DNA from: Streptomyces akebiae
Lineage (GTDB): Bacteria; Actinomycetota; Actinomycetes; Streptomycetales; Streptomycetaceae
Direction of reading: 5' to 3'
NCBI RefSeq assembly: GCF_019599145.1
Contig: NZ_CP080647.1
Coordinates: forward strand, 10,044,001 to 10,108,000
DNA: 64,000 nucleotides
The notes beneath the pieces are model-generated. The model was not told the DNA's origin. It saw nothing but the letters and a program-made list of their open reading frames with translations, and ran no database searches. Both the position numbers and the translations under genes were made by a program. Below, piece after piece: positions 36,484 to 63,396 of the stretch; position 1 is the first letter of the stretch, and every line of letters begins with the position of its first letter.

Positions 36484-36640
36484 GGCCCTCCCTCGCCCCG
36501 TCTTCCCACGCGATCAGCATGCCGACCGCCTGCGTCCGTGGGGCCGATCCCGTCAACTCCCCGCCGGTTCGGCCCTGATGAGGCTCGCGCCGCCGAATAT
36601 CGCGTGCGCCGGCACGGGCGGGCGTAGCAGACTCCCAGGC

Positions 36641-37258
36641 ATGGTGGACATGCGCATGTTCCGGGACGAGGTCACCCGCCGGGCGGGCGGAGACTCCGGC
36701 GGGTCGGCGAGGGACCTGGCGGAACTGCTCGGGGTGCGCACGGTCGTCCTGCTGGAGGGGCTGAGCGACCTCGCGGCCGTCGAGGCACTGGCCGAGAGAC
36801 GGGGCCGTGACCTGGCCGCCGAGGGGGTGTGCGTCCTGTCGATGGGCGGCGCGATGAGCGTCGGCCGCTACACCGCGCTGCTCGGACCGTCCGGCCTCGG
36901 CCTGCGTCTCGTCGGTCTGTGCGACGAGCGCGAGAAGCCGTTCTTCGACCGGAGCCTCGCCCCGTCCTCGACCCCGCGCCACGCCGTCTTCGTCTGCTCG
37001 GCTGACCTGGAGGACGAGCTCATCCGTGCGCTGGGCACTGGGCGCGTCGAGCAGATCGTCCACGACGCGGACGAGTCACGCCCCTGGCAGACCTTCCTGC
37101 AGCAGCCCGCCCAGCACGGCCGCCCCCGCGACCAGCAGCTTCGGCGCTTCATGAGCACCAGGAAGGGTCGCAAGATCCGCTACGGTCGCCTCCTGGTCGA
37201 AGCCCTCGCCCCGGAACAGGTGCCCGCACCCCTGGACGACCTCTTCGCCGGCCTGTGA
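36641..37258 (+). CDS. stand-alone OLD-type TOPRIM protein
   Basis: A 205-aa protein with the TOPRIM signature: VVLLEGLSDLAAVEAL (catalytic Glu region near residues 32-46), VLSMGGAMSVGRY and GLCDERE (the acidic DxE-like position). Its C-terminal half (WQTFLQQPAQHGRPRDQQLR, RKGRKIRYGRLLVEAL) fits OLD/ATP-dependent endonuclease TOPRIM domains. Full OLD nucleases have an N-terminal ABC ATPase; here none is fused or adjacent. ATG 36641 is the likely start. Nuclease or nucleotidyl-transfer activity is inferred only from the domain. Confidence 0.78.
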   Translation: MVDMRMFRDEVTRRAGGDSGGSARDLAELLGVRTVVLLEGLSDLAAVEALAERRGRDLAAEGVCVLSMGGAMSVGRYTALLGPSGLGLRLVGLCDEREKPFFDRSLAPSSTPRHAVFVCSADLEDELIRALGTGRVEQIVHDADESRPWQTFLQQPAQHGRPRDQQLRRFMSTRKGRKIRYGRLLVEALAPEQVPAPLDDLFAGL

Positions 37259-37954: not shown

Positions 37955-38099
37955 GAGCCGGCCCGGTGAGGCCGGACGGCGGATGCGCGCCCGCTTTCGG
38001 ATGACCTCACCGTCTGTCGCCGGGGACGGCGGGCGGCCGTGGCCGAGGATCTCGGTCGGCGGTCATCCCTGCCTGCCGTTCGTCCGCCCGGAGGCAGCC

Positions 38100-39959
38100 G
38101 TGCACATCCTGCTCCTAGCCAGCGCGTTCAACAGCCTCACCCAGCGCACACACGCCGAGCTGCGCGACCGGGGCCACACCGTGGCGGTCGAGCTGGCCCT
38201 GCCGGGCAGCCCCTTGCCGGAGGCCGTACGACGCCACGCGCCGGAGCTCATCGTGTCGCCGATGCTCAGGACGGCGATCCCCGAGGAGGTGTGGTCGGCG
38301 TACACCTGTCTCATCGTCCACCCCGGGCCCGTGGGCGACCGGGGACCGTCCTCCCTGGACTGGGCGATCCACGAGGGCGCCGACCGGTGGGGCGTCACCG
38401 TCCTCCAGGCCGACGCGGAGATGGACGCCGGTGACGTCTGGGCCTCCGTGCCGTGCCGGGTTCCCCCGGTGTCCAAGAGCGAGCTGTACCGGGGCGAGAT
38501 CGCCGACGCGGCGATCGAGGCCGTGCTGCTCGCGGTGGAGCGCTTCGCCGACGGCACCTACGTACCGCTGAAGCAGGACGGGGCGGGCACCTCCGATGCG
38601 GAGGCCGATGCGGAGGCCGATGCGGACGTCCATGCCCATGCCGGTGCGGACGTCGATGCCGATGTCGACCCACCCCCGTGCCTCCGCACGCGTCCCTACC
38701 TCGACCAGAGCGTCCGGCGCATCGACTGGGCCGAGGACGCGACCGAGGACGTCCTGCGCAAGCTGAGGGCGGCGGACTCGCAGCCCGGGGTGCTGGACGT
38801 GCTGCTCGGCGGCGAGTGGTATCTGCACGGAGGTCATGCCGAGGGCGTGCTGCGCGGGCGGCCGGGGGAACTGCTGGCCACCCGCGCCGGGGCGATCTGC
38901 CGGGCCACCAGGGACGGCGCCGTGTGGATCCCCGAACTGCGGCCCCGGCGGCTGCCCGGACAGCCGCCCACCTTCAAGCTGCCCGCCGTACGGGCCCTGG
39001 GCGACCGGCTGCCACCGCTGCCCGAGCACGTCCTGCCCCGCCTGCCAGAGAACCCGCACCGCACCTGGTCGGACATCCGCTACCGGGAGGACGGGAGCGT
39101 CGGGCACCTCGCGTTCTCCTTCCCCGGCGGCGCCATGAGCACGGAGCAGTGCCGCCGCCTTCTGGACGCCTACCGGGAGGCGTGCGCACGGCCCACGACG
39201 GTCCTGGTGCTGGGCGGTGAGCGGGACTTCTTCTCCAACGGGATCCACCTCAACGTCATCGAGGCCGCCGACGACCCCGCCGCCGAGTCCTGGGCGAACA
39301 TCAACGCCATCGACGACCTGGTCGAGGCGGTCCTGACGACGACCGACCGGCTGGTGGTCTCGGCGGTGGCGGGCAACGCCGCCGCGGGCGGCGTGATGCT
39401 CGCCCTGGCGGCCGACGAGATGTGGTGCCGCTCGGGCGCCGTACTGAACCCGCACTACCGGCTGATGGGCCTGTACGGCTCGGAGTACTGGACGCACACC
39501 CTGCCGCGCAGAGTGGGGCCCGCGACGGCGGAACGGCTCATGGCCGAGGCGCTGCCGGTGAGCTCGGCGAGCGCGCTGCGCCTCGGGCTCGTCGACCGGG
39601 TCGTGGACCGCTGCCCCGACGCCTTCGCGGGGGAGGTCGACGGCCTGGCCGCGCGGCTGGCCGCCCTTCCGGCGACGGCGGCACGGATCTCCGCCAAGAA
39701 GGCGGAGCTGGACCGGCTGGAGAGCACGACCCCGCTGGCCGGCTTCCGTGAGCGGGAGCTGACCCGGATGCGCCGGACCTTCGACGACCCGGACGCCGCG
39801 TACCACACGCTGCGCCGTTCCTTCGTCCGCAAGGAACGGCCCTCGCACACCCCGCCGCACCTCGGTCCGGCCCGGGTTGCGCGAACCGCTCCGATGCCCT
39901 CCGGCGCCGTCGTCACCGGAACGGCCCCTGCTGGCGTCCCGTCCCGGTCGAACGGCTGA
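38100..39959 (+). CDS. hypX: hydrogenase maturation protein HypX (HoxX)
   Basis: A 619-aa two-domain protein. The N-terminal part (residues 1 to ~165) is formyltransferase-like (HILLLASAFNSLTQRTHAEL, LIVHPGPVGDRGPSSLDWAI); the C-terminal part (from ~335) is an enoyl-CoA-hydratase/crotonase fold (LVLGGERDFFSNGIHLNVIE, SAVAGNAAAGGVMLALAADE). HypX converts the formyl group of 10-formyl-tetrahydrofolate, via formyl-CoA, into the CO ligand of the NiFe site under aerobic conditions. GTG 38100 is chosen because GGAGG lies 5 bases upstream; the frame to 37983 is not family-like. A linker at ~164-197 is an unusual Asp/Ala/His repeat (DAEADAEADAD). It is 63 bp upstream of the small subunit gene. Confidence 0.93.
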   Translation: MHILLLASAFNSLTQRTHAELRDRGHTVAVELALPGSPLPEAVRRHAPELIVSPMLRTAIPEEVWSAYTCLIVHPGPVGDRGPSSLDWAIHEGADRWGVTVLQADAEMDAGDVWASVPCRVPPVSKSELYRGEIADAAIEAVLLAVERFADGTYVPLKQDGAGTSDAEADAEADADVHAHAGADVDADVDPPPCLRTRPYLDQSVRRIDWAEDATEDVLRKLRAADSQPGVLDVLLGGEWYLHGGHAEGVLRGRPGELLATRAGAICRATRDGAVWIPELRPRRLPGQPPTFKLPAVRALGDRLPPLPEHVLPRLPENPHRTWSDIRYREDGSVGHLAFSFPGGAMSTEQCRRLLDAYREACARPTTVLVLGGERDFFSNGIHLNVIEAADDPAAESWANINAIDDLVEAVLTTTDRLVVSAVAGNAAAGGVMLALAADEMWCRSGAVLNPHYRLMGLYGSEYWTHTLPRRVGPATAERLMAEALPVSSASALRLGLVDRVVDRCPDAFAGEVDGLAARLAALPATAARISAKKAELDRLESTTPLAGFRERELTRMRRTFDDPDAAYHTLRRSFVRKERPSHTPPHLGPARVARTAPMPSGAVVTGTAPAGVPSRSNG

Positions 39960-40022: not shown

Positions 40023-41111
<1,089 letters not shown>

Positions 41112-41221: not shown

Positions 41222-43006
41222 ATGGCACCGAAGACGAAGACGGCCGGCGACGGCAGCGGCCTGGTGGAGATGGCCTGGGACCCGATCACCCGGATCGTGG
41301 GCTCCCTGGGCATCCACACGAAGATCGACTTCAAGCAGAAGCGGGTCGCCGAGTGCTACAGCACGTCGTCGGTCTTCCGCGGCTACAGCGTCTTCATGCG
41401 CGGCAAGGACCCCCGCGACGCCCACTTCATCACCAGCCGCATCTGCGGCATCTGCGGCGACAACCACGCCACCTGCTCGGTGTACGCGCAGAACATGGCG
41501 TACGGCGTGAAGCCTCCGCACCTCGGCGAGTGGATCATCAACCTCGGTGAGTCGGCGGAGTACATGTTCGACCACAACATCTTCCAGGAGAACCTGGTCG
41601 GGGTCGACTACTGCGAAAAGATGGTCAAGGAGACCAACCCCGGCGTCCTCGAACTCGCCGAACGCACCGAGGCCCCGCACGCCGCCGAGCACGGCTACCG
41701 CACCATCGCCGACATCATGCGCTCGCTCAACCCCCTGGAGGGCGAGTTCTACCGCGAGGCCCTCCAGGTCAGCCGCTACACGCGCGAGATGTTCTGCCTG
41801 ATGGAGGGCCGCCATGTGCACCCTTCCACGCTCTACCCCGGCGGGGTGGGCACCATCGCCTCCGTCCAGCTCTTCACGGACTACATGAGCCGCCTGATGC
41901 GGTACGTCGAGTTCATGAAGCGCGTCGTGCCCCTGCACGACGACCTGTTCGACTTCTTCTACGAGGCCCTGCCCGGCTACGAGGAAGTCGGCCGCCGCCG
42001 CGTCATGCTCGGCTGCTGGGGCGCGCTCAACGACCCCGAGTACTGCGACTTCACCTACGCCAACATGACCGACTGGGGACGGAAGATGTTCGTCACCCCC
42101 GGCGTCATCGTCGACGGCAAACTCGTCACCAACGACCTCACCGAGATCAATCTCGGCATCCGCATCCTGCTGGGCAGCTCCTACTACGAGGACTGGCAGG
42201 GCCAGGAGCAGTTCGTCACCCACGACCCGCTCGGCAACCCGGTGGACCCGCGCCACCCGTGGAACCAGCACACCATCCCGGCCCCGCAGAAGCGGAACTT
42301 CGACGACAAGTACAGCTGGGTCATGTCCCCGCGCTGGTTCGACGGCAAGGACCACCTCGCCCTGGACACCGGCGGCGGCCCCATCGCCCGCCTGTGGTCC
42401 ACCGCCCTGTCCGGGCTCGTCGACATCGGCTACATCAAGGCCACCGGCCACAGCGTGGTCATCAACCTGCCGCGCACCATGACCAAGCCGGAGACCACCT
42501 TCGAGTGGCAGATCCCCAAGTGGTCCAACGCGCTGGAACGCAACCGGGCCCGCACCTACTTCCAGGCCTACGCCGCCGCCGTCGCCCTGCACTGCGCGGA
42601 GAAGGGCCTCGCGGAGGTCCGCGCCGGACGCACCCAGACCTGGGAGAAGTTCGAGGTCCCGGACGAGGGCATCGGCGTCGGCTTCACCGAAGCGGTCCGT
42701 GGTGTCCTCTCCCACCACATGGTGATCCGCGACGGCAAGATCGCCAACTACCACCCGTACCCGCCGACCCCCTGGAACGCCAGCACCAGGGACACCTTCG
42801 GCACACCCGGCCCGTACGAGGACGCCGTGCAGAACACGCCCATCTTCGAGGAGAACACCCCGGAGAACTTCAAGGGCATCGACATCATGCGCGCCGTCCG
42901 CAGCTTCGACCCCTGTCTGCCGTGCGGCGTCCACATGTACGTCGGCGACGGCAGAACCGTGAAGTCCATGCACGTGCCCACCGGCCTGAGCGGACTGGGC
43001 GGATGA
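41222..43006 (+). CDS. hhyL: [NiFe] hydrogenase large subunit, group 1h
   Basis: A 594-aa catalytic subunit. Ni ligands are in motif L1 RICGICGDNHATCS (Cys75, Cys78) and motif L2 DPCLPCGVHM (Cys565, Cys568), both of group 1h form. Twenty-three residues follow His571; in this family such a C-terminal extension is removed by the maturation protease after Ni insertion, and the matching protease gene is at 46338. The stop overlaps the next start (ATGA). A 110-bp spacer with its own ribosome site separates it from hhyS. Confidence 0.97.
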   Translation: MAPKTKTAGDGSGLVEMAWDPITRIVGSLGIHTKIDFKQKRVAECYSTSSVFRGYSVFMRGKDPRDAHFITSRICGICGDNHATCSVYAQNMAYGVKPPHLGEWIINLGESAEYMFDHNIFQENLVGVDYCEKMVKETNPGVLELAERTEAPHAAEHGYRTIADIMRSLNPLEGEFYREALQVSRYTREMFCLMEGRHVHPSTLYPGGVGTIASVQLFTDYMSRLMRYVEFMKRVVPLHDDLFDFFYEALPGYEEVGRRRVMLGCWGALNDPEYCDFTYANMTDWGRKMFVTPGVIVDGKLVTNDLTEINLGIRILLGSSYYEDWQGQEQFVTHDPLGNPVDPRHPWNQHTIPAPQKRNFDDKYSWVMSPRWFDGKDHLALDTGGGPIARLWSTALSGLVDIGYIKATGHSVVINLPRTMTKPETTFEWQIPKWSNALERNRARTYFQAYAAAVALHCAEKGLAEVRAGRTQTWEKFEVPDEGIGVGFTEAVRGVLSHHMVIRDGKIANYHPYPPTPWNASTRDTFGTPGPYEDAVQNTPIFEENTPENFKGIDIMRAVRSFDPCLPCGVHMYVGDGRTVKSMHVPTGLSGLGG

Positions 43007-43539
43007 GCGCGCCGACGGCCACGGTGCCGCTGAACGCGGAACAGACCGGACGCAGGGTCGAGGAGGTGCTCGACCGGCTGGCGACGAGCGGCGACCCGGC
43101 CGCCACCGCCGCTGCCGAGGAACTCGTCCGTTCCCTCATGGACTTCTACGGTGCGGGGCTCGCCCGCGTCCTCCACCTGTTGTCCTCCGCGCCCGGCGAT
43201 CCGTCGGCGCGGCTGCTCGGCGACGAACTCGTCGCGAGCCTCCTCGTCCTGCACGATCTGCACCCCGAGGACCGCGACACCCGTATCGTCCGCGCCCTCG
43301 ACACCGTCCGGGAGCACGCCCTGGACGTCATGGATTTCGACGAGCCGAGCGGCACGTTGAGGGTGCGCGCCCGGGCGTCCGGCGGCTGCGGTCGCGGCTC
43401 CGGCGACGAGGACGCCCGGCAGGCGGCCGCAGCGGCACTCGCCTGCTTCGCGCCCGAGGTCAGGGCCGTCCGCGTGGAGACCGCCCCCGTGGAACCCCCG
43501 TTGCTCCAGATCGGCTCCGCGCCGACGGGGGCCCGATGA
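43003..43539 (+). CDS. NifU-like accessory protein of the hydrogenase locus
   Basis: A 178-aa protein. The N-terminal helical part (RRVEEVLDRLATSGDPAATA) and a C-terminal part ending LACFAPEVRAVRVETAP resemble the NifU C-terminal domain that carries a transient Fe-S cluster. The canonical CxxC is not intact: only GGCGRG is found, with a second Cys 30 residues later. It overlaps both neighbours by ATGA, so it is firmly part of the operon. It probably helps Fe-S assembly or acts as a docking protein for the small subunit; direct cluster scaffolding is doubtful without the second Cys. Confidence 0.85.
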   Translation: MSAPTATVPLNAEQTGRRVEEVLDRLATSGDPAATAAAEELVRSLMDFYGAGLARVLHLLSSAPGDPSARLLGDELVASLLVLHDLHPEDRDTRIVRALDTVREHALDVMDFDEPSGTLRVRARASGGCGRGSGDEDARQAAAAALACFAPEVRAVRVETAPVEPPLLQIGSAPTGAR

Positions 43540-44186
43540 CGACCGCGCCCACACGGACCACCGGGCCCGGTGCGGGCCTGCGGCGGTTCCTCACCGAGCG
43601 TCCGCCGCGGCAGGAGCGGTGCGAACTGTGCGCGGTGGCGGTGCCCGAGGACCACCGCCACCTGGTCGACACCGAGAAGCGCGCCCTCGTCTGCGCCTGC
43701 GGCGCCTGCGCGCTGCTGATGGAACAGCCGGGCGCCGCCGCGGGCCGCTTCCGCGCGGTCCCTGCCCGCTATCTGACGGACCCCGCACAGCACCTGGACG
43801 ACAGCGCCTGGGAGGCGTTGCAGATCCCGGTCGGCGTCGCCTTCCTCTTCCGCAACGCGGCGCTGGACCGGCTGGTCGCCCTCTACCCGAGCCCGGCCGG
43901 AGCCACCGAGAGCGAACTCGAACCGGCGACCTGGGCGCAGGTCCTCGACGGCAACCGCCTCGCCGCACTCCTCGAACCCGACGTGGAGGCGCTGCTGCTG
44001 CGCCGCGCCGAAGGCCGCTGCGAGTGCCACCTCGTCCCGATCGACATCTGCTACGAACTCGTCGGCCGCATGCGCCTGCTGTGGCAGGGCTTCGACGGCG
44101 GAGCCGAGGCCCGCGCCGCCCTGGACGCGTTCTTCGCGGACGTCGCACGACGCGCCCGGCCCGTGGAGGAGGCGGTGCGCCCATGA
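43536..44186 (+). CDS. DUF5947-like Cys-rich hydrogenase accessory protein
   Basis: A 216-aa soluble protein. A metal site is evident near residues 29-66: RCELCAVAVPEDH, then ALVCACGACALL, i.e. CxxC followed by CxCxxC; a further CEC is near residue 167. This suggests Zn or an Fe-S cluster. The rest is helical with GVAFLFRNAALDRLVALYPS and a C-terminal helix. It overlaps both neighbours by four bases and occurs in order with the hydrogenase genes, so a role in small-subunit maturation or electron transfer is inferred. I recognise the domain only as a family of unknown function. Confidence 0.82.
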   Translation: MTTAPTRTTGPGAGLRRFLTERPPRQERCELCAVAVPEDHRHLVDTEKRALVCACGACALLMEQPGAAAGRFRAVPARYLTDPAQHLDDSAWEALQIPVGVAFLFRNAALDRLVALYPSPAGATESELEPATWAQVLDGNRLAALLEPDVEALLLRRAEGRCECHLVPIDICYELVGRMRLLWQGFDGGAEARAALDAFFADVARRARPVEEAVRP

Positions 44187-44875
44187 CGGAGTTCTCCTTC
44201 GCCTGCACCGGCGTCCGCGCCGACCGGTACGCCGCCGGACCCACGCTCGTCTTCCGGCTGCGCGTCACCGCCGCCGACAACGCGCACGTGCACGCGGTGG
44301 CGCTGCGCTGCCAGATCCGCATCGAACCGGCCCGCCGGGCGTACGAGCCGGCCGAGGCCGACGGGCTCACCGACCTCTTCGGCGAGCGCACACGCTGGGG
44401 CAGCACCCTCCAACCGGTGCAGTTCGCCCAGGTCGCCCTGATGGTTCCCAGCTTCACGGGGGAGACCGACGTCGACCTCGTCGTGCCCTGCACCTACGAC
44501 ATGGACATCGCCGCCACGCGCTATCTCACCGCCCTCACCGACGGCGAGGTCCCCCTGCTGATGCTGTTCTCCGGTACGGCCTTCACCGGCACGGGCGGTT
44601 TCCGGGTCGAGCCCGTCCCGTGGGACCGCGAGGCGGCCTTCCGTATGCCGGTCGCCACCTGGCGGGAGATGATCGAGCAGCACTTCCCCGGCTGCGGCTG
44701 GATCCGGCTGCCCCGCGACACCATGGACGCCCTCCTCGCCTACCGCTCCCGGCACGCGCTGTCCTCCTGGGAGGCGACCCTCAAGGCCCTGCTCGACGAG
44801 AGCCGCGCCACGGACGCTCCCGCGAGAGATCCGTTCCGCGCCCTCACCGGCACCACCGGAAGGACCGACACGTGA
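44183..44875 (+). CDS. DUF6084-like hydrogenase-locus protein
   Basis: A 230-aa protein of unknown function. It starts with a beta-rich domain (LVFRLRVTAADNAHVHAVAL, RCQIRIEPARRAYEP) and has LTDLFGERTRWGSTLQPVQF, VPCTYDMDIAATRYL and MIEQHFPGCGWIRLPRDTMD as its most distinctive segments. There is no signal peptide or TM helix. It overlaps both neighbours by four bases within the hydrogenase operon. It is likely a dedicated partner of the group 1h enzyme; no catalytic motif is visible. Confidence 0.8.
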   Translation: MTEFSFACTGVRADRYAAGPTLVFRLRVTAADNAHVHAVALRCQIRIEPARRAYEPAEADGLTDLFGERTRWGSTLQPVQFAQVALMVPSFTGETDVDLVVPCTYDMDIAATRYLTALTDGEVPLLMLFSGTAFTGTGGFRVEPVPWDREAAFRMPVATWREMIEQHFPGCGWIRLPRDTMDALLAYRSRHALSSWEATLKALLDESRATDAPARDPFRALTGTTGRTDT

Positions 44876-46341
44876 CCCTGACCGCGTTCGCCGCCGAGAC
44901 CGAGGAGCGGTTCGCCCTCGCCCGGCAGGTGGCCGACGCCGTCCTCTTCGAGGGCTATGTGCTCTACCCCTACCGTGCCTCCGCGGCCAAGAACCGGCTG
45001 CGCTGGCAGTTCGGGGTCCTCGTACCGCCCGCCTGGGGCGCCGAGTGCGAGGAGCACGACTTCCAGCACACCGAATGCCTGATGGAGCCGAAGGCCGACG
45101 CGACCCTCTCGGTCGAGGTGCGCTTCCTGCACGCCCGGCGGCGCACGGTGCAGCGGGCCCGCCCGGACGGAGGCTTCGACACGGTTTCCGAACTCGACCT
45201 CGACGACCGGGTGCTGGTGCCCTGGGACGAGGGCGTCGAGGAACGCGTCGAGGTGATCGCGCCGGTGGACGAACTCCTCGGCGACGGCGTCGTCCACCCC
45301 TTCCACCGCCCGGCGCGGGAGGACACCGCACCGGTCCTGGACGCGGCGGGCCGCACCGTCGGCCGGCTGCTCCGGCGCCGCGAGGAGATCAACGGGACGG
45401 TGCGGCTGTCCGCCCGCGAACTCGACGGCCCCTACCGGGCGTTGCGCCTGACCGCCGTCGTCGAGAACACCAGCGGCTGGACACCGCCCGAGGGACGCGG
45501 CGCCGACCGGGACGCGGCGCTGCCGCACTCCCTGGTGGCCACCCACCTGCTCATGGCCCTCAGCGCCGGATCGTTCCTGTCGATGACCGATCCCCCCGAG
45601 TGGGCCAAGGGCGCGGTCGCCGCCTGCCGCAATCTGCACACCTGGCCCGTACTAGCCGGGGAACCCGGCCGTGCCGACCTCGTGCTGTCCTCGCCCATCA
45701 TCCTGGAGGACCATCCGGCCATCGCACCGGAGAGCCCCGGCGCGCTCTACGACGCCACCGAGATCGACGAGATCCTCGCGCTGCGCACCGCGGCCCTCAC
45801 CGACGAGGAGAAGCGCGAGGCCCGGGGCACCGACGAACGGGCCGCCGCCGTCATCGAGTTGGCCGACTCGATGCCCGCCGAGGTCCTGGAGCGGCTGCAC
45901 GGCGCGGTACGGAGCCTGCGCGAGGTGACCGGCCCCGGCCCCACCGCCCCGGGCCCCGACCTCACGGACCCGGGCCCCGGCCTCACCGCCCTGGGCGGCT
46001 TCCCCGACGAGTACGGGGTCCAGCGGCCGGACACCCCCTGGTGGGACCCCGCGAGCGACGCGGGCTTCGACCCGACGCGGGACCGGGTGGTCGTCGACGG
46101 CCGGTCGGTGGGCAAGGGCAGCCGCGTCGAACTGCACCCGGGGCTGCGCCACACCGACGCGCAGGACATCTTCCTGCGGGGCCGCACCGCCGAGGTCGAG
46201 GCGGTGCTGCACGACGTCGACGGCGGGGTCCACCTGGCCGTCACGGTCGAGGGTGACCCGGGCGCCGACATCCGCCGCGAGCAGGGACGCTTCCTGTACT
46301 TCCAGCCCGACGAGGTCACCCCGCTGGAGGACGACGCATGA
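44872..46341 (+). CDS. 489-aa hydrogenase-locus protein of unknown function
   Basis: A GTG start overlaps the previous stop by GTGA. Recognisable landmarks are an N-terminal VLFEGYVLYPYRASAAKNRL, then LRWQFGVLVPPAWGAECEEH and HDFQHTECLMEP (His and Cys rich), a central HSLVATHLLMALSAGSFLSM and a conserved-looking C-terminus TPWWDPASDAGFDPTRDRVV. A Pro/Gly/Asp-rich linker with GPTAPGPDLTDPGPG separates the last ~100 residues. No TM helix is seen. It is conserved in position with the other two unknown genes, so it may be a maturation or assembly factor; function unassigned. Confidence 0.8.
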   Translation: MTLTAFAAETEERFALARQVADAVLFEGYVLYPYRASAAKNRLRWQFGVLVPPAWGAECEEHDFQHTECLMEPKADATLSVEVRFLHARRRTVQRARPDGGFDTVSELDLDDRVLVPWDEGVEERVEVIAPVDELLGDGVVHPFHRPAREDTAPVLDAAGRTVGRLLRRREEINGTVRLSARELDGPYRALRLTAVVENTSGWTPPEGRGADRDAALPHSLVATHLLMALSAGSFLSMTDPPEWAKGAVAACRNLHTWPVLAGEPGRADLVLSSPIILEDHPAIAPESPGALYDATEIDEILALRTAALTDEEKREARGTDERAAAVIELADSMPAEVLERLHGAVRSLREVTGPGPTAPGPDLTDPGPGLTALGGFPDEYGVQRPDTPWWDPASDAGFDPTRDRVVVDGRSVGKGSRVELHPGLRHTDAQDIFLRGRTAEVEAVLHDVDGGVHLAVTVEGDPGADIRREQGRFLYFQPDEVTPLEDDA

Positions 46342-46895
46342 ACCCCTCCGCGCGGTCGGACCCCAGAACCCTGGTCGCCGGCATCGGCAACATCTTCCTC
46401 GGCGACGACGGCTTCGGTGTGGAGACCGCGCGCCGCCTCGCCGAGCGCGACCTGCCCGACCACATCGAGGTCGTGGACATCGGCGTGCGCGGGGTGCACC
46501 TCGCCTACCAACTCCTGGACGGCTACGACACCCTCGTCCTCGTCGACGCCACGGCACGCGGCGGAGCCCCCGGGACGGTGTACGTCATCGAGCACGACGA
46601 CGCGGACCCGAACCCGCCGACGGGCGCCCCCGCCCTCGACGGCCACCGGATGACCCCCGACACCGTCCTGGCGCTGCTGCGCACCCTCTGCGCGGGGACC
46701 GGCGGCGAGCCGCCACGCCGCGTCCTGGTCGTCGGATGCGAACCGGCCTCGGTGGACGAGCGCATCGGACTCAGCACGCCGGTGTCCGCCGCCGTGCCGG
46801 AGGCCGTCCGGCTGATCGAAGAGCTGCTGCGGAACGGCGAGCCGTCCGTGGCGCAGGCCTCAGCGGCTGAGGCTTCGACAGGAGGTCCGACATGA
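46338..46895 (+). CDS. hydrogenase maturation endopeptidase (HupD/HybD-type)
   Basis: A 185-aa peptidase of family M52. TLVAGIGNIFLGDDGFGVET contains the Asp that senses bound Ni, with VVDIGVRGVHLAYQLLDGYD and GHRMTPDTVL (His) supplying the other positions. It would cut the C-terminal 23 residues of the large subunit after Ni insertion. It overlaps neighbours at both ends by four bases. The C-terminal ~20 residues are Ala/Ser/Glu-rich and poorly constrained. Confidence 0.93.
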   Translation: MNPSARSDPRTLVAGIGNIFLGDDGFGVETARRLAERDLPDHIEVVDIGVRGVHLAYQLLDGYDTLVLVDATARGGAPGTVYVIEHDDADPNPPTGAPALDGHRMTPDTVLALLRTLCAGTGGEPPRRVLVVGCEPASVDERIGLSTPVSAAVPEAVRLIEELLRNGEPSVAQASAAEASTGGPT

Positions 46896-55799: not shown

Positions 55800-56579
55800 G
55801 GACTTCCTCTCGATCGCGTCCGTCGACCGGCCCGGCGCACCGCCGGTGCCCCGGGCCGCCCCCACGGTCTCCGGCGGGCCCTGAGTGGCGCATGGGGGAA
55901 GGGCCCCCATATACCGGCCGACTCCGTCGAGCAGGCCCTGCGCCGGTACGAGCAGCGCCTTGCCCGATGCGTGGCGACCTGCGGCCCCCCGGGTCGTACC
56001 CCCGAGAGCCGGGGACCGGCGCCGCCTACGACCCGCACCCTCGGGAAGCCGCCGCACGCGGGGACTCCTACGGGCGCGGCCTCGACCGACCGCGGGTACA
56101 GGCGCGTCGACAGGGCGCTCGGCGACGAAGCGGCGGCCCTCGCTCGGTGGCGCAGCGCCCTGCCGCCCTGGACGGCACGGGGGCGCCCCTCCTCGCGGAC
56201 CTGCACGGCTCGACGTCGACGACGGGTCTGAGCAGGTAACGCCGTGACTCTCCGGGAAGGAGCGGACAGCGGGTCGGAAAGCGGCCGAAAGCGCTCCGTC
56301 GAGGTGCTTTCGGGGCACTGCGGGCGGCGGCGTGGAACCGTTCCGAGTGCCCCGGGTCCGGCCGTGTATTCCGCTCGGGGCGGTATCTTTTCGGGGCGGT
56401 CGGGAACTTCGCGACCGGCTTTGGTTGTCGGACGACAACTGCGTTAACCTTCACCGGATTTTCTCATCCGGCCGATTCGTGAACTGCGGAAACTCGGCCG
56501 GTGAGCGGGCCTTTCACGGTCCGGCGCGGGTTCCGAGTCCTCGGCGCGAGGGCTCTAGGGGAGCGGAACGAGGGTGCGC
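55800..56579. other. 780-bp intergenic region, divergent promoters
   Basis: Open frames here on both strands lack protein-like composition and any family I recognise. The right third is notably AT-richer (around 56340-56470) and holds an inverted repeat at 56424-56439, so it probably contains the promoter of the multi-HAMP kinase. Confidence 0.55.
56424..56439. promoter_or_regulatory. GTTGTCG-N2-CGACAAC inverted repeat upstream of the kinase gene
   Basis: Perfect 7-bp arms around GA (GTTGTCGGACGACAAC), in an AT-richer stretch 141 bp upstream of the kinase ATG and followed by GCGTTAACC. The size and symmetry fit a dimeric regulator site; the protein is unknown. Confidence 0.5.
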
Positions 56580-59500
56580 ATGAGCGGCAAGACGACCGAG
56601 ACGGTCGAACGGGCCCCGGGAGAGCAGGAGCTACGGCAGCTCCTGGCCGGACTGACCGCCGTACGGGACGGCGATTTCGGTACCCGGCTGCCGTCCGACG
56701 GCGAAGGGCTGCTCGGCGACATCGCCACCGTCTTCAACGGCATGGTGGACCAACTGTCCGTGTTCACCTCGGAAGTCACCCGGGTGGCCCGCGAGGTGGG
56801 CACCGAGGGAACGCTCGGCGGTCAGGCCGAGGTGCCGGGCGTCTCGGGCACCTGGGCCGACCTCACCGACTCGGTCAACGCCATGGCGGGCAATCTGACC
56901 ACCCAGGTGCGCGACATCGCCCAGGTGGCGACGGCCGTCGCCAGGGGTGACCTGTCGCAGAAGATCGACGTCCCGGCGCGCGGCGAGATCCTGCAGCTGA
57001 AGGAGACCGTCAACACGATGGTCGACCAGCTCTCCGCGTTCGCGGACGAGGTCACGCGCGTCGCGCGCGAGGTCGGCAGCGAGGGGCGGCTCGGCGGACA
57101 GGCGCAGGTGCCCGGCGTCGGCGGCGTCTGGCGCGACCTGACCGATTCGGTCAACTTCATGGCCGGCAACCTCACCTCCCAGGTCCGCAACATCGCCCAG
57201 GTCACCACGGCGGTGGCGCAGGGCGACCTGTCGCAGAAGATCACCGTGGACGCGCGGGGTGAGATCCTGGAGTTGAAGAACACCATCAACACGATGGTGG
57301 ATCAGTTGTCCGGTTTCGCCGACGAGGTCACGCGCGTCGCCCGCGAGGTGGGCACCGAGGGACGGCTCGGCGGACAGGCCGACGTCCAGGGCGTCAAGGG
57401 CACCTGGCGCGACCTCACGGACTCCGTGAACTTCATGGCGGGCAACCTCACCGCCCAGGTCCGCAACGTGGCGCAGGTGGCCACGGCGGTGGCGCAGGGC
57501 GACCTGTCGCAGAAGATCACCGTGGACGCGCGGGGTGAGATCCTGGAGTTGAAGAACACCATCAACACGATGGTGGATCAGTTGTCCGGTTTCGCCGACG
57601 AGGTCACGCGCGTCGCCCGCGAGGTGGGCACCGAGGGCAATCTGGGCGGACAGGCGATCGTCCGGGGCGCCTCGGGCACCTGGAAGGACCTGACCGACAA
57701 CGTCAACGTCATGGCGTCCAACCTGACCGGCCAGGTCCGCTCGATCGCGCAGGTCGCCACGGCCGTCGCGCGCGGCGACCTGTCCCAGAAGATCACCGTC
57801 GAGGCCAAGGGCGAGGTCGCCGCCCTCGCCGACGTCATCAACACCATGGTCGACACCCTGTCCGCGTTCGCCGACGAGGTCACCCGTGTCGCCCGCGAGG
57901 TCGGCACCGAGGGACGCCTCGGGGGCCAGGCGCACGTCCCCAACGTCGCGGGCACCTGGAAGGACCTGACCGACAACGTCAACTCGATGGCGAACAACCT
58001 CACCGGTCAGGTCCGCAACATCGCCCTGGTGACGACGGCGGTGGCGGGCGGCGACCTGTCGAAGAAGATCGACGTCGACGCCCGCGGCGAGATCCTGGAG
58101 CTGAAGACCACCATCAACACGATGGTCGACCAGCTGTCGTCGTTCGCCGCCGAGGTCACCCGCGTCGCCCGCGAGGTCGGCAGTGAGGGGCGGCTCGGTG
58201 GGCAGGCCGAGGTGGAGGGCGTCGAGGGCACCTGGAAGCGGCTCACCGAGAACGTCAACGAACTGGCCGGGAACCTCACCCGGCAGGTCCGCGCCATCGC
58301 CGAGGTCACCAGCGCCGTCGCCGAGGGCGACCTGACCCGCTCCATCACCGTCGAGGCGTCCGGCGAGGTCGCCGACCTCAAGGACAACATCAACTCCATG
58401 GTGGAGTCCCTGCGCGAGACCACCCGGGCCAACCAGGAGCAGGACTGGCTGAAGACCAACCTCGCCCGGATCTCCGGCCTGATGCAGGGCCACCGCGACC
58501 TGCCCGTCGTCGCCGAGCTCATCATGGACGAGCTCGCACCGCTGGCCTCGGCCCAGTACGGCGCCTTCTACCTCGCCGAGGACACCGAACGCGGCCCGGA
58601 ACTGCGGCTGGTGGGCTCCTACGGCTACCCCGACGACACCGACCGGCCGGAGCGCATCCCCGTGGGCCGCTCGCTGGTCGGGCAGGCCGCGCGCAACCGC
58701 CGTCCCATCAGCGTCGAGGAAGTCCCGCCGGGCTATGTGACGATCTCCTCCGGGCTCGGACAGGCCGTGCCCAGCGCCCTGGTCGTGCTGCCCATCGTGG
58801 TCGAGGACCAGGTCCTCGGCGTCATCGAACTGGGCTCCGTCACCCCCTTCACCCAGATCCACCAGGACTTCCTCGCCCAGCTGATGCCGACCATCGGCGT
58901 CAACCTCAACACCATCGTGGCCAACGCCCGCACCGACGAACTGCTCGGGGAGTCCCAGCGGCTCACCGCCGAACTCCAGGCACGGTCCGAGGAGTTGCAG
59001 GTCCAGCAGGAGGAACTGCAGCGCTCCAACGCCGAACTGGAGGAGAAGGCCTCCCTGCTGGCCTCGCAGAACAGCGACATCGAGGCCAAGAACCTGGAGA
59101 TCGAACAGGCTCGGCAGGAGCTGGAGACGCGCGCACAGCAGCTGGCTCTGGCGTCCAAGTACAAGTCGGAGTTCCTGGCGAACATGAGCCACGAACTGCG
59201 CACGCCGCTCAACAGCCTGCTGATCCTGGCCCAGTTGCTGGCCCAGAACCCCTCGCGCAACCTCACGCCCAAGCAGGTCGAGTACGCGGGCATCATCCAC
59301 TCGGCGGGCTCGGACCTGCTGCAGCTGATCAACGACATCCTCGACCTGTCGAAGGTCGAGGCGGGCAAGATGGACGTCGCCCCCGAGCGAGTACCGCTGC
59401 GCAAGCTCCTCGAGTACGTCGAGGCCACGTTCCGCCCGATGACGTCGCAGAAGAGCCTGGACTTCACGGTGGCCACCGCACCGGGGACGCCCGCCGACCT

Positions 59501-60848
59501 GCTCACCGACGACTCCCGGCTGCGGCAGATCCTGCGCAACCTGCTGTCGAACGCGGTGAAGTTCACCGAGGAGGGCGGCGTCACCCTGCGCATCGAGCCC
59601 GCCGTGGACCGCGAGGTCCCCGTGGGCGTCCTGCGTGGCGGTCCCGTCGTGGCGTTCCGGGTCAAGGACACCGGCATCGGCATTCCCCAGCAGCAGTTGG
59701 AGACGATCTTCGGGGCGTTCCAGCAGGCGGACGGCACCACCAGCCGCAAGTACGGCGGCACGGGCCTCGGCCTGTCGATCACCCGGGAGATCGCCCATCT
59801 GCTCGGCGGCGCCGTCACGGTCGACAGCACACCCGGTCAGGGCAGCACCTTCACCCTCTACCTGCCCGTGGCGCGCGACGACTTCGAGGAACTGCTCGAC
59901 GGCGACGGCCGACCGACGGAGCACCCGCACCCCACCGGCCGTGAACTCCCCTCGGCGTCCCGGCCGGACACCGCTTCCCCCACGGTGCCCGAGCAGCGCC
60001 GGCGCCGCCTGCTGGTCGTCGAGGACCGCCCGCGAGGACTGCTGACCCTCGTCGCCGAACGCGCGGTCGCGGACCTCGCGTCCGACGGCGACCACCTCGG
60101 CGCGATCGACATCATCACGGCGGTCGGAGCACAGGAAGCCGCGACCACACTGGCCTCCGAGCCCTGCCACTGCGTCGTCCTCGAAATGGCCGTACCCGAC
60201 GACGAGGGCGCGCGTCTGCTGGAAGCCATGGAGGGCGACTCGGCGCTCGCCAGCGTGCCCGTCCTCGTGCACACCGGCCATCGGGTGGACCTGGCGCACG
60301 AACAGGCCCTGCGCGTCCGTGCGGACGGCCGCCCGCTGGACTTCCTCTCCAGCCTGGACGAACTGCGCGAACGCATCACCCTGCACCTGTCCGCCGAGGA
60401 GCCGGGGGACGTGCTGTCCCTGGTGCGCGCCGAGGAGACCCAGCGCCCGGCCGCCCAGGTCGTCGACGGCGCCTTCCAAGGCCGCAAGGTCCTCGTGGTC
60501 GACGACGACGCCCGCAACCTCTTCGCACTCAGCGGAATGCTGGAACTCCACGGCTTCCACGTCCTGCACGCCGACAACGGCCGCCGGGGCATCGAGATGC
60601 TGCTCGCCCACCCGGACGTCTCCCTGGTCCTGATGGACGTGATGATGCCCGAGATGGACGGCTACACCGCCACCGCGGAGATCCGTGCGATGCCCCAGTA
60701 CGCCGACCTGCCCATCATCGCTGTCACCGCGAAGGCCATGCCCGGCGACCAGGAGAAGAGCCTGGCGTCGGGCGCGAACGACTACGTCACCAAGCCGGTC
60801 GACACGGGTGACCTCATCGGCCGCGTCCGACGCTGGCTGACCGTATGA
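56580..60848 (+). CDS. multi-HAMP hybrid histidine kinase (Nik1/group III-like)
   Basis: A 1422-aa soluble sensor kinase. Residues ~15-620 are a ladder of HAMP units: seven GD(L/F)xxxI-type units alternate with six [10 protein letters not shown](T/S)EG-type units in a 92-residue period, as in fungal Nik1 osmosensors. A GAF domain (~640-785), a long coiled coil (~785-865), HisKA with [10 protein letters not shown] (His871), HATPase_c ([26 protein letters not shown]) and two receiver domains follow. The first receiver is degenerate (LEMAVPD with Glu1202 at the phosphoacceptor position); the second is intact ([12 protein letters not shown], Asp1353; K in TKPVD). No TM helix is present, so it should sense a cytoplasmic cue. 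ATG 56580 is preferred over GTG 56574. It is followed 76 bp later by a PP2C phosphatase. Confidence 0.93.
57205..57637 (+). repeat. identical 157-bp direct repeat within the HAMP ladder (276-bp offset)
   Basis: Bases 57205-57361 are repeated without a mismatch at 57481-57637, exactly 276 bp (92 codons) apart. Other HAMP repeats of the gene are similar but diverged. Perfect identity at synonymous sites points to a recent duplication or gene conversion, and makes loss or gain of a 92-residue HAMP pair by recombination possible. Confidence 0.9.
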
Positions 60849-60924: not shown

Positions 60925-63396
60925 GTGAGCAACCCCCACCAGCCGGCCGAGCCGCGGCATGCCGACGCCGCGCCGGGCGGGCCGTCGGGCGACGACGTGC
61001 CCGCGGCCGACGTGAACGCCGCGGACACGCAGGGGCAGTCCTCGCCCGTCGGCAGGCTCGCCGCGACCGTGGAGCGGTTGCGCCGCGAGGTGCAGGCGGC
61101 CCAGGCGGAGGCGGACGGCCGTGCCGTGATCGAACTGGCCAAGGGCATCCTCGTCGAGCGACTCGGGTGTGGGCCGGCCCAAGCGGCCCTGCAACTAGCC
61201 GAACTGACCGAGCAAGCGGGCCTGACACCCCTGGAGTTCGCCGTCGAGGTCATCAACCAGGCCGCGCGCGACCGGCTCTCCGAGATGACGACCGCCCTCC
61301 TCGCGACCCCCGCCGGCCGGGACGACACCGACGACCCGCCGGGCAGCGGCTCCTTCGCCGTACGGCTGCGGACAGCGGAGAGCGCCGCCCTGGCCGCCCA
61401 CGACGCCCAGGCCGTCGCCGACTCCCTCCTGGAACACGCCCTCACCCCGCTCGGCGCCGAAGCCGTGGCCATCTGGGCGCTGGGCGCCGACGGTTCCCTC
61501 ACCCTCGCCGGCAGCGCCGGTTTCTCGGTCGGCGAGGCGGCACGCTGGCGGTACGTCCCGCCGGGCGTCGTCACCGTCGCCCGCCGCGGACTCGACGACC
61601 GAGCCGGTCAGTGGATCGGCTGCCTGTCGCAGACCGGTCTGCCCTCCATCGGCCGGCACCACCATCCCGACGGCGGCCGGGTCGCCGTACCCGCGGGCAC
61701 CGGCGGCCGTATCCACGGAGTGCTGGAGATCGTCTGGCCCACGCCGCTGGAGGCCCAGCCCCCGCAGATCGTCCGCCAGGTCGAAGCCCTGGCCGAGCTG
61801 TGCGCGCACACGCTCGGGACCTTCGCCCCGCCCCACGGCGACGGCGACGCGCGCCCCGGGATCCTGCCGGCCGTCGCCGAACTGATGGACCTCGCCGACG
61901 GACTCCACGACCCCGCGCTGGTGCTCGTCCCCCACCTGGACGCCACCGGGGAACTGGTCGACTTCCGCATCCACCACGTCAACAGCCGCTTCCTCGACCC
62001 GGCCGGCCGGCCCCGGGGCGTCGTCAACGGAGCCCTGCTCCTGGAGACGTATCCCATGGCCGCCGGCGAGAGCGAACTGTTCGAGCAGATCGAACGCGTC
62101 TACGCCACCGGCGAGCCGTTCCGCGCCCGGCGCATGCGGCTCACCTCCCTCGTGGAGGACGTGCCGCTGGCGGCGGTCGCCGACATCAACATCACCCGGC
62201 ACGGCGGCAGCGTCCTGCTCATCTGGCGCATAGAGGACGAGACCGCACGGCTGGCGAGCCTGCTGCAGCACGCCCAACGCCTCGGCCGCATCGGCGGGTT
62301 CGAGGAGAACCTCGTCACGGGCGAGATCACCTGGAACGGCCAGCTCTACAGCCTCTACGGCAAGCCCTCCGTCAGCGGCCCCGTCCCGCTGGAGGACCTG
62401 CCCGCCCACGCCCACCCCGACGACGCCGTCGCCATCGGCCGGTTCCTGCGTACCCTGCTGCACCACCGTCGCTCCGCGTCCGCGGCGTTCCGGCTCCAGC
62501 GGCCCGACGGGGTCACCCGGCACATCCGCGTGGTGGCCGAGCCGGTCCTCGACTCCGACGGCCGACTCTTCGTCGTCCGGGGCGCCTACCAGGACATCTC
62601 CGCCCACCACTGGACGGAGGTCGCCCTCGCCGCCACGCGCGACCAGCTCGCCCACTCCGAGCAGCAGGCGAGCGAACGCGACCGGCTCACCCTTCAGCTC
62701 CAGCACGCGATCATGCCCCCGGCCCAGGCCCCCCTGGAGGCCCCGGGACTACGCGTGGCCGTCCGCTACCGGCCCGCCGAGACCCAGCACCTGGTGGGCG
62801 GCGACTGGTACGACGCGGTCGTGCTGCCCTCCGGGCTGGTGCTGCTGTGTGTGGGAGACGTGGCCGGGCACGGCATAGAGGCGGCCACCAGCATGGTCGT
62901 CCTGCGCAACGCCCTGCGCGGTCTCGCCGTGACCGGCGCCGGACCGGGCCAGTTGCTGGCCTGGCTCAACATGGTGGCCCACCACCTGACCGGATCCGTC
63001 ACCGCCACGGCCGTCTGCGGGCTCTACGACCCCCACCGCCACACCCTGCGCTGGGCCAGAGCGGGCCATCTGCCACCCGTCCTGGTCCGCGCCGCCGAGG
63101 CTTCGCCGCTCCCGCTGATCAAGGGCCTGCTGCTCGGCGCCCTGCCCGAGGCGACGTACGAGGAACACGAACTCCAACTGGCCGTCGACGACACTCTCCT
63201 GATGTACACCGACGGTCTGATCGAACGCCGTGACCGCTCCGTGGAGGAATCCCTGGCCCAACTGCTCACCGCCGCCCGCACCGTGCCCCCCACCCTCGAC
63301 CAGCAGCTGGACCGCCTCCTCACCTACAGCAAATCCGACACGGACGACGACACCTGTCTCGTGGGCGTCCGGGTCGCGCAGGTCCTGGCGGACTGA
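60925..63396 (+). CDS. ANTAR-GAF-PAS-PP2C (SpoIIE-type) phosphatase
   Basis: An 823-aa regulator. Near residues 60-115 is an ANTAR RNA-binding domain (RAVIELAKGILVERLGCGPA, AALQLAEL), followed by a GAF-like domain (~145-290), a PAS-like region (~315-440), a PAS_3 domain (RLGRIGGFEENLVTGEITWN, ~450-560) and a SpoIIE/RsbU phosphatase (YRPAETQHLVGGDWYDAVVL, LCVGDVAGHGIEAATSMVVL, LMYTDGLIERRD). It would dephosphorylate an anti-anti-sigma factor. ANTAR fused in front of a PP2C phosphatase is uncommon and links RNA binding with partner-switching. GTG 60925 has GAGGAACAGG upstream. An RsbW-type kinase gene follows 109 bp later. Confidence 0.9.
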   Translation: MSNPHQPAEPRHADAAPGGPSGDDVPAADVNAADTQGQSSPVGRLAATVERLRREVQAAQAEADGRAVIELAKGILVERLGCGPAQAALQLAELTEQAGLTPLEFAVEVINQAARDRLSEMTTALLATPAGRDDTDDPPGSGSFAVRLRTAESAALAAHDAQAVADSLLEHALTPLGAEAVAIWALGADGSLTLAGSAGFSVGEAARWRYVPPGVVTVARRGLDDRAGQWIGCLSQTGLPSIGRHHHPDGGRVAVPAGTGGRIHGVLEIVWPTPLEAQPPQIVRQVEALAELCAHTLGTFAPPHGDGDARPGILPAVAELMDLADGLHDPALVLVPHLDATGELVDFRIHHVNSRFLDPAGRPRGVVNGALLLETYPMAAGESELFEQIERVYATGEPFRARRMRLTSLVEDVPLAAVADINITRHGGSVLLIWRIEDETARLASLLQHAQRLGRIGGFEENLVTGEITWNGQLYSLYGKPSVSGPVPLEDLPAHAHPDDAVAIGRFLRTLLHHRRSASAAFRLQRPDGVTRHIRVVAEPVLDSDGRLFVVRGAYQDISAHHWTEVALAATRDQLAHSEQQASERDRLTLQLQHAIMPPAQAPLEAPGLRVAVRYRPAETQHLVGGDWYDAVVLPSGLVLLCVGDVAGHGIEAATSMVVLRNALRGLAVTGAGPGQLLAWLNMVAHHLTGSVTATAVCGLYDPHRHTLRWARAGHLPPVLVRAAEASPLPLIKGLLLGALPEATYEEHELQLAVDDTLLMYTDGLIERRDRSVEESLAQLLTAARTVPPTLDQQLDRLLTYSKSDTDDDTCLVGVRVAQVLAD

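Follow-up and report, generated by a model that had tools for sequence, protein, structure and literature searches.

A fixed four-gene accessory set beside the group 1h [NiFe]-hydrogenase genes of Streptomyces akebiae

The hydrogenase locus and its accessory genes

The window considered here is a 64-kb stretch (71.7% GC) of the 10.5-Mb genome of Streptomyces akebiae (contig NZ_CP080647.1, positions 10,044,001 to 10,108,000), and our subject is a cassette of four genes at its positions 43003 to 46341, inside a [NiFe]-hydrogenase operon. One strand carries a gene that we take to be hypX, the structural genes hhyS and hhyL, the four accessory genes, a maturation protease gene and then hypA, B, F, C and D, these last five names being our reading of the translations of the open reading frames (ORFs). 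These four genes represent the Streptomyces version of a fixed accessory set of the group 1h [NiFe]-hydrogenases, which are also called Hhy or actinobacterial-type hydrogenases (AH). The relevant features, in window coordinates, are the following.

40023..41111, + strand: hhyS, group 1h small subunit, 362 amino acids, with C36-x-G-D39 (ORF and PDB relative)
41222..43006, + strand: hhyL, group 1h large subunit, 594 amino acids (ORF and identity to the Cupriavidus necator H16 large subunit)
43003..43539, + strand: gene 1, hhyE in its short form, 178 amino acids, with an N-terminal helical part and a degenerate NifU-like domain (alignment with relatives)
43381..43404, + strand: degenerate NifU cysteine motif GGCGRGSG, HhyE residues 127-134 (alignment)
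43536..44186, + strand: gene 2, DUF5947 protein, 216 amino acids, counterpart of PHG067 (PF19372, E = 2.4e-75; C. necator locus)
43620..43709, + strand: metal-site candidate CxxC-x7-HxH-x10-CxCxxC in the DUF5947 protein (invariant across loci)
44183..44875, + strand: gene 3, DUF6084 protein, 230 amino acids (PF19562, E = 3.4e-98; predicted model)
44872..46341, + strand: gene 4, two-domain accessory protein of 489 amino acids, counterpart of PHG069, GTG start (no Pfam or NCBIfam family)
44950..45708, + strand: DrmA-like chassis domain of the 489-residue protein, residues 27-279 (likeness in predicted structure and, weakly, in sequence)
46078..46338, + strand: C-terminal SH3-like barrel of the 489-residue protein, residues 403-489 (encoded by an ORF of its own in some lineages)
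46338..46895, + strand: hydrogenase maturation protease of HycI/HyaD type (PF01750, E = 1.3e-15; TIGR00072, E = 2.2e-36)
37983..39959, + strand: the presumed hypX, with formyltransferase and crotonase domains (Pfam domains), upstream on the same strand and outside the cassette

All five junctions from hhyL through genes 1-4 to the protease gene are 4-bp overlaps that read ATGA or GTGA, just as the original prediction had described the coupling. The gap is exactly -4 at 75/102 loci for hhyL and gene 1, and at 81/102, 90/101, 86/101 and 64/101 loci for the four junctions that follow; the start codons were picked by a script, and about 80 of the loci are close relatives (Streptomyces, Kitasatospora, Actinacidiphila).

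Among PDB entries HhyS is closest to HofK (5aa5), the small subunit of the C. necator actinobacterial-type hydrogenase, with an E value of 3.1e-163, the next match being at 1.7e-41. The hhyL product is 78.6% identical to the large subunit of C. necator H16 over 97% of the query. The loci compared come from a discovery set and from a fresh sample of the class, where DUF5947 was found in 76/394 genomes, 68 of them new, giving 69 loci. The CxGD motif of HhyS, which reads CDGD in the window, is present in 102/102 discovery rows and in 38/39 fresh rows, the sole miss being a 121-residue fragment. Its aspartate is, as we take it from the AH literature, the residue that replaces a cysteine of the proximal cluster. 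At one degenerate locus (L235:4005-5522) a 121-residue HhyS fragment lies in a stretch in which HhyL was not detected, and HhyE and DUF5947 are still open there. At four loci (L158, L159, L160 and L162) the group 1h small subunit is mislabelled as 'hydrogenase expression protein HypE'.

Linkage of the set to group 1h hydrogenases

The same four families are present in the same order on plasmid pHG1 of C. necator H16, as PHG066-PHG069 between hofG and the protease gene PHG070. The order there is small subunit, large subunit, NifU family protein, DUF5947, DUF6084, hypothetical protein and protease. Since all four homologues keep this order, the cassette is not a chance arrangement. Genes 2-4 share 40-46% protein identity between the two loci and PHG066 is also a short HhyE that lacks the CxxC, while the arrangement of the hyp genes is different.

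PMC4377017 names hofK and hofG, then PHG066-069 as four ORFs whose function is unknown, and PHG070, and PMC10657181 speaks of the C. necator enzyme as a characterised one. For alphaproteobacterial methanotrophs, PMC12319191 describes four coding sequences of unknown function beside hhyL, the nearest of which is NifU-like, the NifU domain going unrecognised in that coding sequence of one strain. These resemble the window in having four unknowns beside hhyL, but differ in being proteobacterial and in that the other three families are left unnamed in the excerpt. Four hypothetical proteins are also mentioned in PMC13332983. Gene 1, directly after hhyL, is the homologue of HhyE (MSMEG_2718) of Mycobacterium smegmatis, whose deletion has been published (PMC6883350). 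The same paper relates MSMEG_2717 to PHG067, and gene 2 probably corresponds to this protein. The cassette and its first gene are already in print, and the suggestion that this is an undescribed system has to be given up, given the set in C. necator, the published HhyE deletion and the four ORFs named as unknowns (PMC4377017, PMC12319191). The biochemistry of genes 2-4 and a DrmA-like hydrogenase protein were not found among the literature matches listed, which are open-licence papers.

The linkage to one hydrogenase class was surveyed in 296 genomes of Actinomycetota, in which an HhyL was taken as group-1h-like at an identity of at least 65%, fragments included. DUF5947 is found in 26/296 of these genomes and such an HhyL in 29/296, and 25 genomes have both (a Fisher test on this co-occurrence takes no account of relatedness). 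In the sole genome with DUF5947 only (G189), the contig ends inside the DUF5947 gene, while the four with HhyL only are three fragments and one genome (G042) in which only 1.5 kb of contig follow; among the genomes with a full-length HhyL, 23/24 have DUF5947. Fifteen genomes carry a distant [NiFe] large subunit (36-46% identity), and among them DUF5947 is found only in the two that also have group 1h. At the G042 contig end (L141), a single frame starts in HhyE and, after a low-complexity stretch, continues as DUF6084, DUF5947 being missing; this is either a fusion or an assembly error.

The other two families have similar counts, DUF6084 being found in 27/296 genomes and the 489-residue family in 29/296, one of the latter weakly (G121, E = 1.7e-5). 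In G216 and G290, DUF6084 and the 489-residue gene lie near a contig start, and DUF5947 and a group-1h-like HhyL were not found in these two genomes. At two loci (L237 and L242) HhyE, DUF5947 and DUF6084 are present, and the 489-residue gene was not found within the 10.5 kb fetched. In a search of 72,556 plasmid records, with E values up to 1e-50 for HhyL and up to 1e-3 for the 489-residue protein, one and the same set of 12 records, which stem from 9 organisms, was found with HhyL, with DUF5947 and with the 489-residue protein, and 10 of the 12 also match DUF6084. The four-gene set marks group 1h hydrogenases. The shared role that had been proposed on the basis of the tight coupling is supported by this, as DUF5947 and HhyL stand together in 25/26 genomes and 12/12 plasmid records.

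Variable and invariant sites in the four proteins

The HhyE homologue is encoded directly after hhyL in the window and in the loci read. The full-length form (279-316 residues, in one case 403) consists of a helical N-terminal part, a NifU domain in which the motif reads GSCxGCPSS or something close to it, and a C-terminal domain that bears two CxxC pairs, and its match to PF01106 (NifU) has E values down to 2.3e-24. The C-terminal domain, which we read as a Rieske fold, has CxxC pairs, not the Cys/His pairs of Rieske proteins; compared with the Pfam Rieske family, three out of five full-length members are above the cut-off, one is below it and one gives no match. The M. smegmatis protein has both the NifU CxxC and the C-terminal domain (PMC6883350), whereas the window HhyE is without either. 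It stops after the NifU-like part, reads GGCGRGSG where the full-length form has GSCxGCPSS, and contains only Cys129 and Cys148, which form no CxxC, in agreement with the incomplete cysteine motif of the original prediction. The window protein itself matches no Pfam family, but 8/9 of the relatives tested match PF01106 and align with it. At the position of the CxxC the C. necator HhyE (L158) reads GRLQGKHAS, and in the alignment the Methylocystis HhyE also lacks the motif. PMC6883350 mentions truncated HhyE proteins without the C-terminal domain, while loss of the NifU CxxC is not mentioned in the sections considered.

We have counted the two cysteine sites over all loci. In the discovery set (n = 102), 14 HhyE proteins have both, 87 have neither and one (L157) has the NifU CxxC only; in the fresh set (n = 69), 20 have both and 49 neither, a protein with a single C-terminal CxxC (L250) being counted among the former. 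Seven further stretches of six genomes (L083, L085, L088, L102, L103, L105 and L107) stand outside these counts and add five rows, three with both sites (L088, L105 and L107) and two with the NifU CxxC only (L083, and L102 with its 5' end cut); the L085 and L103 stretches hold no HhyE. The L141 frame was left out, as were other loci among L081-L137 that repeat counted genomes. In total, 176 HhyE proteins comprise 37 with both sites, 136 with neither, 3 with the NifU CxxC only and 0 with the C-terminal domain only. A strict pairing of the two sites, predicted beforehand, held in the fresh 69 loci and was broken by 3/107 other rows, which keep the CxxC alone. Because rows with only the CxxC exist and rows with only the C-terminal domain do not, the C-terminal domain was apparently lost before the NifU CxxC.

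The change between long and short HhyE occurred repeatedly. On a tree of HhyS and HhyL (42 rows) the state changes at least 5 times, 4 of which are forced by well-supported branches, and on an HhyL tree (70 rows) it requires 6 changes, all forced; both trees are quick ones, with branch support from the Shimodaira-Hasegawa-like approximate likelihood ratio test only. We infer that the changes are losses rather than gains; for HucE of group 2a, too, PMC6883350 describes a NifU domain together with a cluster motif at the C terminus. At three loci (L265, L267 and L268) HhyE is cut to 128-140 residues, with little beyond the helical part. Seven residues are shared by 25/25 aligned HhyE proteins: L53, D74, H84 and P88 belong to the helical part or its end, and R94, A145 and P151 lie further towards the C terminus.

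Two other ideas about HhyE were considered. One was that genes 1 and 2 are a split version of a fused M. smegmatis HhyE, and this was rejected because genomes with a full-length HhyE also have a separate DUF5947; when the C-terminal domain of HhyE was compared with DUF5947 by profile, the probability was only 9%. The other was a connection with HypX. Among 57 tree loci, 17 have a short HhyE with HypX, 23 a short one without, 17 a long one without and 0 a long one with HypX, but there are only 3 independent pairs (median p 0.5), and no link is claimed.

In contrast to the HhyE sites, which vary between lineages, gene 2 has a constant motif. The protein scores 252.5 bits against PF19372 (cut-off 25) and has the predicted CxxC...CxCxxC pattern as C29xxC32 and C53xC55xxC58, together with an H40xH42 that the original prediction had not listed. 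C29, C32, H40, H42, C53, C55 and C58 are kept in 26/26 divergent DUF5947 rows, and with a wider spacer the motif is present at 105/105 discovery and 69/69 fresh loci, that is, at 174/174. The pattern used initially had missed 5/69 fresh loci, four with longer spacers and one with a trimmed start, and was therefore widened and applied to the whole reading frame. The motif is also present in 6/7 of the further stretches, the seventh (L103) ending at a contig end before it. Within the set, DUF5947 alone offers a constant metal-site candidate, with five Cys and two His, which may either serve as the redox exit or hold a metal for structural reasons.

The product of gene 4 contains 3 Cys and 14 His, which agrees with its description as a His/Cys-containing protein; a C59-H62-H66-C69 cluster is, on the other hand, not conserved, and was rejected as a metal site since C59 is present in only 33/80 close and 2/22 divergent relatives. 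What the family does conserve is H225 (80/80 close, 22/22 divergent), C252 (80/80 and 20/22) and H343 (80/80 and 21/22). Residues 27-279 resemble residues 148-424 of DrmA from the DISARM system (7s9v), its chassis domain, in predicted structure and weakly in sequence. Beyond this likeness the two differ: the tandem RecA helicase modules of DISARM gave no Pfam match in the 489-residue protein, a DrmB gene was not seen, and the protein is found almost only in group 1h loci. The excerpt of PMC9142583 reports no structural relatives for the DrmA regions outside the RecA modules. A search for DrmA in the family of the window returned none at E 1e-50 in 121 genomes and none in the controls either, and is uninformative. 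The predicted structure ends in an SH3-like barrel, and at three loci (L151, L152 and L154) the protein is split into one of 335-349 residues and a short barrel ORF that abuts or overlaps it. For the window proteins of genes 1 and 4 no Pfam or NCBIfam family was matched, and for genes 1-4 convincing PDB relatives were not found by sequence.

Gene 3 scores 327.8 bits against PF19562 (cut-off 25). Its predicted model (mean predicted local distance difference test score, pLDDT, 77.9) is an immunoglobulin-like beta sandwich followed by C-terminal helices, which bears out the description of a beta-rich 230-residue protein. DUF6084 is absent from one lineage. The family is named once in a paper on aurodox.

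Role of the set and competing explanations

The explanation that we favor, with a probability of roughly 0.5, is that the four accessory proteins together form an assembly and docking platform for HhyS-HhyL. It is suggested by the tight co-translation, the linkage to one hydrogenase class, the dispensable HhyE clusters, the chassis-like protein, the beta sandwich and the invariant metal protein. HhyE would then act as a protein partner, minimally via its N-terminal helical part and not via bound clusters, and its NifU-like and Rieske-fold cysteine sites would be ancestral extras that were dropped in the window lineage, apparently beginning with the C-terminal domain. The 489-residue protein, with its DrmA-like chassis and SH3-like barrel, and the DUF6084 beta sandwich would be structural partners, while DUF5947 would bear the one obligatory metal site, made up of five Cys and two His. 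In M. smegmatis, HhyE is required for Hhy activity, the deletion strains being inactive in zymograms, and the dye nitroblue tetrazolium (NBT) fails to compensate for the deletion (PMC6883350); assembly fits this better than a pure relay does.

It is important to point out that a number of observations weigh against the platform. PMC6883350 favours electron transfer for HhyE, citing its co-migration with HhyL and HhyS, and leaves the choice between electron carriage and an aid to assembly undecided. On average, conservation is no higher in the helical part of HhyE than in the NifU-like part (mean top-residue frequency 0.54 vs 0.57). Lineages with a full-length HhyE keep all or nearly all of the CxxC pairs, and the clusters probably matter there; in the genomes with the most reduced HhyE, the enzyme may not be active. 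The DrmA match has a low TM-score of 0.23 and is absent from profile searches of PDB sequences, and the fold match of DUF6084 is a generic one. Direct contact with HhySL, the role in assembly and the metal in DUF5947 are all things that we infer.

The most serious competitor, which we regard as possible but clearly less probable, is an electron exit, in which the cassette would relay the electrons of HhyS to the quinone pool or to the bcc-aa3 chain, with DUF5947 as a redox protein, HhyE as a docking partner and extra Fe-S relays wherever HhyE is long. The DUF5947 motif at 174/174 loci would suit such a role, but five Cys and two His are equally compatible with a structural zinc site, and a PDB relative of DUF5947 was not found by sequence. 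The gene neighborhoods offer some support as well: a cytochrome b gene is not listed in three annotated plasmid stretches (according to the PLSDB gene tables, which are incomplete), cytochrome b and cytochrome oxidase subunit I genes adjoin the hydrogenase in Streptomyces cattleyicolor, and on a Mycobacterium intracellulare plasmid a nuo run that covers subunits A to F of complex I, F being cut, lies downstream of the group 1h cluster (L159:15862-19731). These respiratory neighbours are, however, seen at single loci, and the fact that NBT does not make up for a missing hhyE (PMC6883350) also speaks against a relay. A bolder version, which we consider doubtful, is a new hydrogenase supercomplex in which all accessory proteins would be stably bound to HhySL, the 5-Cys/2-His centre of DUF5947, of a kind not described before, would be the universal electron exit of atmospheric-H2 hydrogenases, HhyE would be a scaffold that has repeatedly shed its NifU and Rieske-fold clusters, and the 489-residue protein would reuse the DrmA chassis.

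A NifU-type scaffold, in which HhyE (with DUF5947) would build or insert the 3Cys-1Asp proximal cluster of HhyS, is a role that the original prediction had suggested beside a link to the respiratory chain. The full-length HhyE does have a NifU domain with CxxC and adjoins hhyL in the loci read, but the CxxC is gone in the window, in C. necator, in Methylocystis and in other lineages with the HhyS aspartate site unchanged, and PMC6883350 places a homologous NifU-like protein, HucE, with the group 2a enzymes. Because the cysteine sites are lost repeatedly while the CxGD of HhyS stays, C. necator included, the HhyE cysteines are unlikely to build this cluster or to carry electrons everywhere; judged from the motifs, the aspartate site is indifferent to them. 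We therefore consider the scaffold improbable overall, and for the lineages with a short HhyE it is largely refuted. Still less probable is that the proteins are Hyp-type maturation helpers acting on the large subunit, for instance in nickel insertion or in chaperoning before the protease cleavage. The cassette does end at the protease gene, which is followed by hypA, B, F, C and D, but all [NiFe] large subunits need maturation and the set is group 1h-specific, with DUF5947 present in only two of the 15 genomes with distant large subunits, both of which also have group 1h.

The soil sink of atmospheric H2 is attributed to group 1h enzymes, whose assembly and electron acceptor the cited excerpts leave undecided. 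The repeated loss of the HhyE cysteines makes the proposals of an Fe-S relay and of a NifU-type scaffold testable and moves the attention to DUF5947, whose seven putative ligands do not vary in any complete copy read. For the largest protein of the set, the DrmA-like domain would be a first structural handle.

Some further observations concern the surroundings. On plasmid pSCAT of S. cattleyicolor (L161:5868-17015), a hemerythrin-domain gene lies between the 489-residue-family gene and hhyS, and fasciclin, cytochrome oxidase subunit I and cytochrome b genes follow past DUF5947, possibly as a link to the respiratory chain. In the window, a gene with an OLD-like TOPRIM domain (36578-37255) is located upstream of hypX. 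At 56574-60845 there is a 1424-residue hybrid histidine kinase with six HAMP stretches, a GAF and a receiver domain, and it is adjoined by a SpoIIE/ANTAR/PAS protein at 60925-63393.

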